Assembly (NCBI GenBank): GCA_024278855.1
Contig: JAJRSJ010000027.1
Location: 62,001 to 126,000, forward strand
Source: Alphaproteobacteria bacterium
GTDB taxonomy: Bacteria; Pseudomonadota; Alphaproteobacteria; Caulobacterales; Maricaulaceae
DNA length: 64,000 bases
Reading direction: 5' to 3'
Of this stretch, positions 54,420 through 59,262 are shown piece after piece (positions within the stretch are counted from its first letter, which is position 1; every line of letters begins with the position of its first letter). The translations under genes were made by a program, and so were the position numbers. Under the pieces are notes generated by a model. That model saw only the letters and a list, made by a program, of their open reading frames with translations, did not search any database and was not told where the DNA came from.

Positions 54420-56711
54420 TTATGGACTGATTTTTATAGATTTTCTGGCAACCACTCTTTTGCCGCCAAGCACATATCTAATCTCGTATTCGCCCGGCGT
54501 TTTGGGCATTGTCAGCGTTTGCGGGCTGCCATTTACCGAATAAAAATAATCCGTGTATTTACTGGCCCTCGCATCCGGCGGCACCACGGTGATCCAGTCA
54601 CCGCGCTCCGCAGGGCCTGCAAAACCTACCGAAATATCGTCCCCGGTTTTGGCTTGAGCGGGGGCGTCAAGGGATATTGAAATATCCGTTATGGTGATGT
54701 TTTGGCGCGCAATGACTTTAGCATTATTCTGCACATACCGAAGCTCATAAAGACCCGGCTCAAGCGGCATGGATATTTTTGCAGGCGAACCGTTTCTGGT
54801 ATAGGCATAATCCAGATAGCTTTTCTCTCGTGCGTCCGGCGTCGTTACTGTGATAAAATCACGCGGCTCATCGGTCGGGCCAACCCAATCTATTTCAACC
54901 GCGCTCCCGACAATGGCAGATTTAGGTCCCCTTAAACTTGCCTGTACTTGCGTGATTGTGACGGGTTTGCGGGCAATGACTTTATCGCCTTGCAACCCAC
55001 CCTTTTGCACATAGCGCAGTTCGTATAGACCGGGGGTGAGCGGCATTCTGATTTTTGACGGACTGCCATTGCTGGCATATTTATAGTCCCCGTAACTATT
55101 TTGGGCCGCGTCCGGTTTGGTCACCGTAATATAATCTCCTGTGCCCTCTGGCCCACTCCATTCAATGCTCAGCGTCTCGCCTGTTTCGGCGGTGTCTGGG
55201 CCGTCAAGACTGGCACCGACCGCAGTAATCACGACAGGCTGTCGTGCAATGACACTATGGGCGTTGCCGCTGGTGTCCGCACCGGGGCCGACAAAAACAT
55301 AGCGAATTTCATATTTGCCCGGCTTAACCGGCATGGTTAAATCATGGGGTGTGCCTGCGTCTTTGGTATAAAAATAATCCAGATATGCCGCCGCCTCAGC
55401 GTCTATGGGCGTTATGGTGATAAAATCGCTCTGGGAGGCCGGGCCGCTCCACTGCACGGAAAAAACACTGCCTGCCTCAGCCTTTTGCGGGCCTTTGACG
55501 CTGGCCACAGCTTTACCGACCTGCATAGGGGTGCGGGCTAATACTTTATAGGGATTATTTAAAACATAGCGCACCTCATAACTGCCCGGCGTTATCGGCG
55601 CGGTGAGCCTGAGCGGATTGCCGTTACTGGTATAGGCATAGCTGGTATGGGATCTCGCCTTGGCATCCGGCGCGGTGATAGTGATAAAATCCGCACGCTT
55701 ATTTGGCCCGGTCCATTCAACAACGAATGCGAGCCCGGCTCCAACTTGTTCGCGCTCCGGTGTCACGCTGGCTTCATATTGCGGATCAAGGGCAATGGTA
55801 ATATTTGTTTGGCGGCCCGGCGCTATGTTCATCAGGCGGCGTACACCCTTAAGGCCGTCTGAAATTTGGGTGACAAAGACATCATAAACCCCGGGCGGAA
55901 TTTCTGTGTTGACTTCGCCTTTATTATCGCCCTCGTAAACGATCTCCCCGCCGCCTGTTTTTTGTACACGCCAGTTCAAGCCCGTCCCTATGGTCGGGCC
56001 ATTTTCCAACACCGTTGCTGCCAAATAAAGCTTAGCCGGTGCTGCCCCGACTTGTTGGGAAACTATTGTCGCGCCAACCGCCGTGGACAGTTCGCCGGCA
56101 TTTGCGGCTGACAAATAAAGCCCGCCTGTGCTTTCGGCCAAGCATTGCAATTGTGTTTCCGTCTTTTTATCGACAATATCAAAGCCGACCACATGGGCGG
56201 TGAAATCCACACCGTCTGCCGCCAATTGCTTGCCCAAGGCGCACGGGTCGAGATTACAGGTCTCGATGCCGTCGCTGATCAAAATGACCGTGGCCTTGCT
56301 TTGCGTGTATTTCAACTTTTCCGCCGCCATTTTGACAGAGGCCGATATCGGGGTTTTGCCCTTGGGGCTGATCCCCTGAACTGCTTTTTTAATTGCGGCC
56401 CGACTGGCGCCTATTTCGGACAAAAGCGCAATATCAGAGCAATCCCCTTTTTTTGTATGACCGTAAGCCATCAGGCCGAGGCGGGTACTGGCCGGCATTT
56501 CGTCCAATAATTCGCTCAACACGCCGCGCGCAATCTCGATTTTGGCCTTGCCCTCAATCTGCCCCCACATGGAGCCGGACGCGTCCAATATGAGAATCGC
56601 GTCCTCGCTAGGCGTTTCCTGATCTGCATTTTGAGCGGTCGCAGGGCTTACCCCCAACATGACAGAAACAATTAGCCCCACTAGAATCCGGTGAATATTT
56701 GCATAATTCAT
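54420..56711 (-). CDS. vWA-domain exported protein with five C-terminal beta repeats
   Basis: A 763-aa protein with a signal peptide (ILVGLIVSVMLGVSPATA) and a von Willebrand A domain at residues ~35-220. Its MIDAS motif is LILDASGSMWG, with T in KGKTPISASV and D in LISDGIETC. After a beta linker come five ~75-90 aa repeats with the core WSGP ... DYITVTKPDA ... YELRYV. The repeats should form a string of Ig-like or pre-peptidase-like beta domains, suited to adhesion or surface scaffolding. The start is ATG at 56711 with AAAGGG upstream. Confidence 0.85.
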   Translation of the reverse strand: MNYANIHRILVGLIVSVMLGVSPATAQNADQETPSEDAILILDASGSMWGQIEGKAKIEIARGVLSELLDEMPASTRLGLMAYGHTKKGDCSDIALLSEIGASRAAIKKAVQGISPKGKTPISASVKMAAEKLKYTQSKATVILISDGIETCNLDPCALGKQLAADGVDFTAHVVGFDIVDKKTETQLQCLAESTGGLYLSAANAGELSTAVGATIVSQQVGAAPAKLYLAATVLENGPTIGTGLNWRVQKTGGGEIVYEGDNKGEVNTEIPPGVYDVFVTQISDGLKGVRRLMNIAPGRQTNITIALDPQYEASVTPEREQVGAGLAFVVEWTGPNKRADFITITAPDAKARSHTSYAYTSNGNPLRLTAPITPGSYEVRYVLNNPYKVLARTPMQVGKAVASVKGPQKAEAGSVFSVQWSGPASQSDFITITPIDAEAAAYLDYFYTKDAGTPHDLTMPVKPGKYEIRYVFVGPGADTSGNAHSVIARQPVVITAVGASLDGPDTAETGETLSIEWSGPEGTGDYITVTKPDAAQNSYGDYKYASNGSPSKIRMPLTPGLYELRYVQKGGLQGDKVIARKPVTITQVQASLRGPKSAIVGSAVEIDWVGPTDEPRDFITVTTPDAREKSYLDYAYTRNGSPAKISMPLEPGLYELRYVQNNAKVIARQNITITDISISLDAPAQAKTGDDISVGFAGPAERGDWITVVPPDARASKYTDYFYSVNGSPQTLTMPKTPGEYEIRYVLGGKRVVARKSIKISP

Positions 56712-56926
56712 AAGGCACCCTTTCAAGTACAGGCCTTAAGCCTAGCACATGATTGGTATTTTTGGAATAATTGTTTAAATCGGCCATAAGCACAGATTAC
56801 CAGAACATGTTTCGTTTTTTATCACCTTTGGGTTGTCGAGCGCGCAAATATTTTACCAAAAATGTCGCAAATCACCTTATGTTCTACACAGATGAAAACT
56901 GGAATCATTATAGGTTGAAGTGCGGA

Positions 56927-56992
56927 CTTGTTTTTTGGTTTTTTTGCAAAAAAAATTATAAAATAATTGAAAAAAAATATTGCAACCAAAGC
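56927..56992. other. Very AT-rich tract upstream of nrdA
   Basis: About 65 bp of almost pure A/T with long A and T runs (TTTTTTGG ... AAAAAAAATTATAAAATAATTG), far from the composition of the surroundings. It lies upstream of the CtrA-type boxes in a 568-bp gap and may be a bent or nucleoid-protein binding region. No gene is seen in the first part of the gap. Confidence 0.6.
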
Positions 56993-57018
56993 TTTGGAAT
57001 ATCAGGAAGTTTTGGCGA

Positions 57019-57057
57019 TTAACCCGGCGTTAACCACGGAGCTTAACGGGTTATTAA
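57019..57057 (+). promoter_or_regulatory. Two tandem CtrA-type boxes upstream of nrdA
   Basis: TTAACCCGGCGTTAA (57019-57033) and TTAACGGGTTATTAA (57043-57057) each match TTAA-N7-TTAA exactly, 24 bp apart. This is the consensus for the cell-cycle regulator CtrA in Caulobacter-type bacteria. Binding itself is inferred. Confidence 0.7.
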
Positions 57058-57110
57058 CAATAAAAATACCAAACTACACACACAAGGTATTGACGGCGTG
57101 GTGGAAATGG

Positions 57111-57126
57111 ACACTATATGTAGTAC
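57111..57126 (+). promoter_or_regulatory. NrdR-type box at the nrdA promoter
   Basis: ACACTATATGTAGTAC closely matches the NrdR consensus (ACAC-ATATAT-GTGT type). It overlaps the -10 region of a TTGACG promoter whose -35 is at 57091-57096. Only one clear box is visible; NrdR sites usually come in pairs. Confidence 0.6.
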
Positions 57127-57165
57127 GAAGACCGTTTGGGTTTCCAAAACTTGATGAATTGACAG

Positions 57166-57185
57166 CGGATATGGGTACATATCCG
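57166..57185 (+). promoter_or_regulatory. Inverted repeat in the nrdA leader
   Basis: CGGATATG-GGTA-CATATCCG is a perfect 8-bp inverted repeat with a 4-bp spacer, between the promoter and the start codon. It could be a further operator or an RNA hairpin. Confidence 0.5.
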
Positions 57186-57279
57186 AAGGGGATATTTGTC
57201 ACTGTAAATACCAGTTTAATCACGCGGCGCTTTGGGAAAAGGGGCCACAAAACAGATAACGCTACAAAATGGGGGAATT

Positions 57280-59262
57280 ATGTCAGAAGCACCGACAACA
57301 GGAGCCGCGACCACACATCAAGCCGCACATCAAATTTCTGATGATAGCAGCCATATAACAACGCCTGTTTCATCTGATTATAGCAAGTCCCCTAAAGTTA
57401 CGAACACAAGAGGCGCTAAGCACACACCAACTTCGCTTAAACTGGTAAAGCGGGTTAAAATCAACCATGAGCGCGACGAACTTTTGACCGATTTTGGCAA
57501 AACCACCTTGGTTGACCGTTACCTCCTGCCTGAAGAAAGCTACCAGGACATGTTTGTCCGCGTCGCCGAGCATTACGCCGACAAGGACGACCCGGCCCAC
57601 GCCCAGCGCCTGTATGATTATATGTCCAAACTTTGGTTCATGCCTGCCACACCTATTCTCTCAAACGGCGGCGCCAAGCGCGGCCTGCCCATATCGTGCT
57701 TCTTAAATGCCGTAGACGATAGCCTTGATAGCATTGTTGAGGTATGGAACGAAAATGTCTGGCTCGCCTCCAACGGCGGCGGTATTGGTACCTATTGGGG
57801 CAATGTCCGCTCTATCGGCGAAAAAATTGGTCGGGCCGGTAAAACATCCGGCATTATTCCGTTTATCCGGGTCATGGACAGTTTGACTTTAGCCATTTCC
57901 CAAGGCTCATTACGCCGGGGTTCTGCCGCTGTCTATCTGGACATTCACCACCCAGAAATTGAGGAGTTTCTCGAAATCCGTAAACCGAGCGGCGACTTTA
58001 ACCGCAAAAGTCTGAACCTGCATCACGGCCTCAACATCACCGACGAATTTATGGAAGCGGTACGGGACGGGGATGAATTCGCCCTGCGTTCGCCCAAGAC
58101 AAAAGAAATTATCAAGAAGATCGACGCCCGTAAATTATGGCAAAAAATCCTGGAAATGCGCTTGCAGACCGGCGAGCCATATATGGTGTTTTCAGATACG
58201 GTCAACAAAGCGTTGGCGACGCACCAAAAGGAACAAGGCCTACGCGTACAGCAATCCAATTTGTGTGCCGAGATTATGCTGGCCACGGGTAAAGACAAAT
58301 CCGGGCGGCAACGTACCGCCGTGTGTTGTTTGTCATCGGTCAATGCCGAATTGTTTGAAGAGTGGAAAGACGACGAAAACTTCATCGAAGACATATTGCG
58401 GTTTTTGGATAATGTCTTGCAGGACTATATCGACAATGCGCCCGAAAAAATGGCGGACGCGGTTTATTCGGCCCACAGAGAACGTTCCGTCGGGCTTGGC
58501 CTGATGGGTTTTCATTCTATGCTCCAAGCCAAAGGTGTACCGTTTGAAAGCGGTATGGCCAAGGCCATGAACAAACGCTTGTTCAAACATATTCGCACGC
58601 AAGCCGATGCAGTCAGTGTCAAATTAGCCGTCGAGCGCGGGGCTTGCCCGGACGCGGCAGATGCAGGCATGATGGCAAGGTTCTCCCATAAACTGGCCGT
58701 GGCCCCGACCGCGTCTATTTCGATCATATGCGGCGGTACATCGGCGGGTATTGAGCCGATTCCGGCCAATATCTACACCCACAAAACCCTGTCAGGTTCG
58801 TTTACGGTGCGCAACAAACATCTGGAAGCCGTGCTTGAGCAAAAAAATGCCAACACGCCGGAGGTCTGGAACTCTATGTTGGAGCAAGAAGGCTCCGTTG
58901 CTCATTTGGACGAATTATCCGAGGACGAAAAGGCAGTATTTCGCACCGCATTTGAGCTTGACCAGCGCTGGATTATTGAACTGGCCGCCGACCGCGCGCC
59001 GCTGATTTGCCAAGCCCAGAGCCTGAATATTTTCATCCCCGGCGACGTGAATAAATGGGATCTGCACATGCTGCACTGGAATGCTTGGGAAAAAGGCATT
59101 AAATCTTTGTATTATTGCCGCTCAAAATCCGTGCAGCGTGCCGCATTTGCGGGCAGTGGGGACAAGCCAACAAATGACCAGGCGGGCGAGGTGGACGACA
59201 TGCAAGCCGCTATGCAAGCCGCCGCCCCGACGGATTACGACGAATGTCTGGCGTGCCAGTAG
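57280..59262 (+). CDS. nrdA: Class I ribonucleoside-diphosphate reductase alpha subunit
   Basis: NrdA carries the active site that turns ribonucleotides into deoxyribonucleotides. Blocks are MPATPILSNGGAKRGLPISC (active-site Cys), GGGIGTYWGNVRSIGEK, SNLCAEIML, and the C-terminal YDECLACQ tail with redox cysteines. At 660 aa it is shorter than E. coli NrdA, and no ATP-cone is seen at the N-terminus, so the allosteric overall-activity site appears absent. I chose the ATG at 57280 after GGGGGAATT. nrdB is not next to it. The upstream region holds CtrA- and NrdR-type boxes. Confidence 0.95.
   Translation: MSEAPTTGAATTHQAAHQISDDSSHITTPVSSDYSKSPKVTNTRGAKHTPTSLKLVKRVKINHERDELLTDFGKTTLVDRYLLPEESYQDMFVRVAEHYADKDDPAHAQRLYDYMSKLWFMPATPILSNGGAKRGLPISCFLNAVDDSLDSIVEVWNENVWLASNGGGIGTYWGNVRSIGEKIGRAGKTSGIIPFIRVMDSLTLAISQGSLRRGSAAVYLDIHHPEIEEFLEIRKPSGDFNRKSLNLHHGLNITDEFMEAVRDGDEFALRSPKTKEIIKKIDARKLWQKILEMRLQTGEPYMVFSDTVNKALATHQKEQGLRVQQSNLCAEIMLATGKDKSGRQRTAVCCLSSVNAELFEEWKDDENFIEDILRFLDNVLQDYIDNAPEKMADAVYSAHRERSVGLGLMGFHSMLQAKGVPFESGMAKAMNKRLFKHIRTQADAVSVKLAVERGACPDAADAGMMARFSHKLAVAPTASISIICGGTSAGIEPIPANIYTHKTLSGSFTVRNKHLEAVLEQKNANTPEVWNSMLEQEGSVAHLDELSEDEKAVFRTAFELDQRWIIELAADRAPLICQAQSLNIFIPGDVNKWDLHMLHWNAWEKGIKSLYYCRSKSVQRAAFAGSGDKPTNDQAGEVDDMQAAMQAAAPTDYDECLACQ

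Follow-up and report, generated by a model that had tools for sequence, protein, structure and literature searches.

The control region of nrdA, the gene for the class I ribonucleotide reductase alpha subunit, raises the question of whether DNA-precursor synthesis can be tied at one promoter both to the cell cycle, through CtrA, and to the regulator NrdR. A preliminary description of the region had proposed such a link, and every motif that it named was located at its position. The nrdA control region proves to be real and conserved, and it is a new combination of known regulators with a candidate leader RNA. We consider it likely that the promoter is composite, with three conserved layers, namely a pair of NrdR boxes, a CtrA box, and a structured leader (Table 1).

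The window, meaning the whole 64-kb stretch of DNA that was analysed (G000:C34:62001-126000), comes from a 2.72-Mb genome, which is a Robiginitomaculum-type MAG and thus a marine relative of Caulobacter. Named relatives of its NrdA are found in Robiginitomaculum, Hellea, Algimonas, and Hyphomonadaceae records, mostly MAGs. The nrdA product scores 1009 bits with NF006577, for which the cut-off is 620. The nrdB gene is located away from nrdA on a separate contig (C67), and C44 carries a class II nrdJ-like gene. The divergent neighbour of nrdA (window 54420-56726) encodes a VWA-domain protein, listed with a length of 768 aa, in which domains are repeated. Between the two genes, GAATC, a CcrM-type GANTC site, occurs at window 56902-56906 within TGGAATCATTATAG, a sequence found again at this place in several members of the genus.

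Table 1. Features of the nrdA control region (positions are those of the window)
Feature	Position	Strand	Remarks
A/T-rich tract	56931..56995	.	most A/T-rich 65-mer of the window, 83%
Distal CtrA-type box TTAACCCGGCGTTAA	57019..57033	.	motif match; exact in one relative (G004)
Proximal CtrA-type box TTAACGGGTTATTAA	57043..57057	.	conserved; starts 71 bp upstream of -10
NrdR box 1 ACACAAGGTATTGACG	57080..57095	+	overlaps -35 TTGACG (57090-57095)
Inferred promoter TTGACG-N18-CTATAT	57090..57119	+	from sequence and conservation
NrdR box 2 ACACTATATGTAGTAC	57111..57126	+	overlaps -10 CTATAT (57114-57119)
Structured nrdA 5' leader, GAAGACC...stem-loop...GTCRCT	57123..57209	+	covariance model R1 match
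Leader stem-loop	57153..57200	+	P1 57153-57159 / 57194-57200; P2 57166-57173 / 57178-57185; 4-nt loop
Inverted repeat CGGATATG-GGTA-CATATCCG	57166-57185		unique in genome
nrdA, class I ribonucleotide reductase alpha subunit	57280..59262	+	NF006577; 660 aa; start codon ATG at 57280, with GGGGGAA ahead of it as RBS

The promoter elements listed in Table 1 gave no match in a generic sigma-70 scan, and transcription is expected to start near position 57126. The A/T tract of the preliminary description is indeed the richest of its length in the window, but at 83% it is therefore not pure A/T. It reflects a composition bias within the genus only, where the A/T fraction at this position is 0.62-0.83 as against 0.50-0.57 for the loci overall, and it is not general in sister genera.

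A single NrdR box over the -10 element had been noted. This box exists, but it belongs to a pair whose second member, at 57080-57095, had been missed. The distance between box 1 and box 2 is exactly 31 bp, leaving a gap of 15 bp, and published NrdR sites consist of two 16-bp boxes with 15-16 bp between them (PMC12051234). Among all pairs in the window spaced by 31 or 32 bp, the one at nrdA ranks first, with 23.6 bits vs. 9.8 for the next. Box 2 is the highest single site in the window (18.7 bits), while box 1 alone reaches 4.8 bits and has a poor right arm. This arm doubles as the -35 element, which accounts for the weakness of box 1 alone and means that half of its conservation has another cause. 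C4 and G13 are present in both boxes, and those of box 1 are invariant in 18/18 genomes. The conserved G-C pairs of NrdR sites are read by residues D15 and R17 (PMC9110341), both of which are present in the NrdR encoded here, whose gene is intact and scores above the curated cut-off. The 31-bp spacing is kept in the genus and in sister genera; in other lineages the partner box lies elsewhere, yet commonly 31 or 32 bp away.

The arrangement thus resembles the NrdR pairs of bacterial ribonucleotide reductase promoters in its two 16-bp boxes, its 15-bp spacer, its position over the promoter, and its cognate NrdR with D15 and R17. It differs from the usual pairs in that the -35 element replaces one arm of box 1 and a CtrA box is added, and the genome differs in that a matching set of boxes also precedes gcrA. 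Upstream of nrdB (L176:214-276), only weak NrdR-like sites are found, including the palindrome TGTCTATATGTAGACA with altered arms, and that region contains no CtrA box. Elsewhere in the genome, an NrdR-like pair, with boxes of 13.8 and 11.7 bits at a spacing of 31 bp, occurs at G000:C9:38423-38469 (L168:1468-1514) between divergent genes, one of which encodes a small membrane protein.

NrdR control of gcrA, if the boxes there are what they seem, would be the most interesting consequence of this analysis, reaching beyond the original finding. A genome scan returned a single zero-mismatch NrdR box, ACACAACATATAGTGT, at C36:67288-67303 (box D), which ends 46 bp upstream of the start codon of gcrA. 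The upstream region of this gene (G000:C36:67174-67303; L171:1675-1804) contains four NrdR-type boxes, with A, B, and C spaced in 31-bp steps upstream of D. Using a scoring matrix built from nrdA boxes only, a single NrdR box above shuffles (p<0.05) was found in 57/58 gcrA upstream regions vs. 3/38 control pieces. A pair at 31 or 32 bp reached p<0.05 in 57 of the 58 regions and p<0.01 in 52, compared with 2/38 controls; the 58 regions span five families, and related genomes among them are not independent. The box layout is conserved, and it extends to a Caulobacter species and to Caulobacteraceae MAGs, being weaker in Brevundimonas. In this genome gcrA is also preceded by a CtrA box (TTAAACTTTATTTAA), which is not conserved and was taken as incidental.

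It is possible, though somewhat doubtful, that these boxes represent the -35 and -10 elements of the gcrA promoter, or the site of another factor with a related palindrome, rather than NrdR sites. A plausible promoter, TTGTGT-N16-TACGAT, shares positions with boxes B and C, so part of their conservation may be that of the promoter itself. Moreover, a DnaA-like sequence, CTGTGGATA, lies between boxes A and B, and the gcrA promoter of Caulobacter has been reported to be activated by DnaA (PMC3193534). Against such a reading stand boxes A and D, which are conserved despite lying outside the promoter, the perfect match of D, the retained 31-bp phase, and the retained C4 and G13, as well as the fact that the matrix was trained on nrdA only. 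NrdR targets outside ribonucleotide reductase do exist, as indicated by topA of P. aeruginosa (PMC4409342); that case differs from gcrA in involving a single box, activation, and a topoisomerase instead of a cell-cycle regulator. No open-access paper describing NrdR control of gcrA was found, and the papers naming both concern other organisms.

Downstream of the promoter, the extra inverted repeat of the preliminary description is present and unique in the genome. It does not behave as an operator; on the grounds of comparative folding, it is the tip of a putative structured leader RNA, its two arms forming helix P2 nested in the longer stem 57153-57200. In the genus alignment the repeat changes in sequence, and a distinct repeat occupies this position in almost every species. 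RNAalifold applied to 13 leaders recovered the hairpin, with compensatory double changes in 6/8 pairs. Paired cells, including those of the enclosing helix, amount to 83.0% vs. 71.6% in shuffles, and the covariation score is 0.542 vs. 0.309 for shuffled alignments (0/500), while slid-pairing controls reach at most 0.186. The folding z of the leader stem-loop is -3.05. A covariance model finds one strong match per genome, before nrdA, in 13/14 genomes of the genus, and no further strong match in 61 genomes. The genus genome without a leader match, G006, carries only a partial nrdA match. Outside the genus, the model gives no significant match at the sequence level; similar stem-loops of sister genera fold well in part of the cases only, with z of about -2 to -3.5 in 4/7 folded.

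The alternative that the repeat is the DNA operator of a further, fast-evolving regulator, and not an RNA structure, would suit the perfect 8-bp palindrome found in this species. It is nevertheless unlikely, since complementarity is retained where the sequence itself differs even in the nearest relative, a second covarying helix encloses the repeat, and the repeat is located downstream of the inferred start site. A conserved operator was rejected outright because the sequence is not kept in relatives.

Structured 5' leaders preceding nucleotide-metabolism genes are known, among them the 2'-dG riboswitch and other leader RNAs, and nrdA here resembles these genes in having one. In contrast to the 2'-dG riboswitch and its kin, the nrdA leader matches none of the Rfam models at E up to 1, has no terminator-like site, and is narrow in taxonomic range. 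No intrinsic terminator was found in the leader, which makes attenuation unlikely, and a role in message stability or translation is our guess. A pairing of leader UCUCC with the ribosome-binding site, noticed by eye, was set aside as inconsistent across the genus.

The third layer of the promoter is the CtrA box. Two had been described, and both are present; only the proximal one is conserved, whereas the distal one, exact in G004 alone, was rejected as an essential part. The right half-site of the distal box, GTTAACC, is commoner among relatives than the full box. The window contains TTAA-N7-TTAA twice, both times at nrdA and within 39 bp. A shuffled window predicts about two such motifs anywhere in 64 kb, so the case for CtrA must rest on position and conservation. 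The proximal box is kept in 13/13 readable nrdA upstream regions of the 14-genome genus. When the 140 bp before -10 were scanned in 46 genomes of several families, at least one CtrA box was found in 25 of them vs. 0.73 expected from dinucleotide shuffles. In 23 of these 25 genomes the box starts at -70 to -72 relative to CTATAT; the remaining two have it at -84 and -82, about one helical turn farther. This near-constant register to -10 is what functional contact would be expected to produce, and the position fits a polymerase-contacting upstream activator better than a simple block. Robiginitomaculum antarcticum (L017/L096) lacks a CtrA box upstream of nrdA, as do several other genera. That the promoter is an ordinary NrdR-controlled one, with CtrA boxes arising as chance matches beside the A/T tract, could draw on the shuffle expectation and on the A/T-richness of the nrdA region, but is very improbable against the 25 genomes, the fixed -10 spacing across families, and a total of only 38 such boxes in the whole genome.

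A CtrA ortholog is encoded, with 86% identity over 204 aa to a Caulobacter query. Together with the TTAA-N7-TTAA(C) box, it likens this promoter to the CtrA-controlled promoters of Caulobacterales; in a relative that is stalked and budding, ChIP-seq gave the consensus TTAA-N7-TTAAC (PMC7200025). Nrd terms are absent from the main text of that 2020 study (PMC7200025), nrd genes are unmentioned in a 2010 alphaproteobacterial comparison, and the papers searched yielded no mention of nrdA as a direct target of CtrA. The nrdA gene of Caulobacter crescentus (CCNA_03607) is likewise a class I nrdA within the cell-cycle programme; it differs in that it is reported to be down in delta-ccrM cells and to have a conserved promoter GANTC (PMC3973325), and in the DnaA control proposed for it (PMC8203912). 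Elsewhere in the genome, two overlapping TTAA-N7-TTAA boxes lie at G000:C44:33495-33520 near a gene whose product was recognized by eye, from its sequence, as RelA/SpoT-like.

The proposed tie of nrdA to the cell cycle and to NrdR, which was to stand or fall with the presence of the boxes in close relatives, survives this comparison. Every readable close relative keeps one CtrA box together with the NrdR boxes, and both regulators are encoded. We infer all NrdR and CtrA binding, and the direction of regulation, from sequence. When dATP is high, an NrdR tetramer loaded with dATP/ATP would occupy the two boxes over -35 and -10 and exclude RNA polymerase. CtrA would bind a single box on a fixed helix face, about 71 bp upstream of -10, and thereby gate nrdA by the cell cycle. 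The nrdA mRNA would start with the leader, whose stem-loop, kept by compensatory changes, probably affects stability or translation.

As NrdR-type paired boxes also precede gcrA, NrdR probably signals the dNTP level to two recipients, ribonucleotide reductase and the cell-cycle circuit. In its broadest form, which we advance only tentatively though it is plausible, NrdR may be a dNTP-sensing arm of the alphaproteobacterial cell-cycle circuit. Loaded with dATP, it would bind conserved phased boxes at gcrA and nrdA, and the precursor level would in this way be conveyed directly to the S-phase regulator.

In Caulobacter, an increase in dNTPs prolongs G1 without the involvement of CtrA, by a mechanism left open in that work, and delta-nrdR cells are hyper-spreading on soft agar (PMC12186491). 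The conserved NrdR boxes of gcrA suggest a route from dNTP level to G1 length, and NrdR acting at gcrA, if true, could explain part of this CtrA-independent delay. With the leader stem-loop, a replication-essential gene also gains a candidate RNA element. The nrdA and gcrA boxes may represent a concrete circuit that couples the supply of DNA precursors to a cell cycle of the Caulobacter type.
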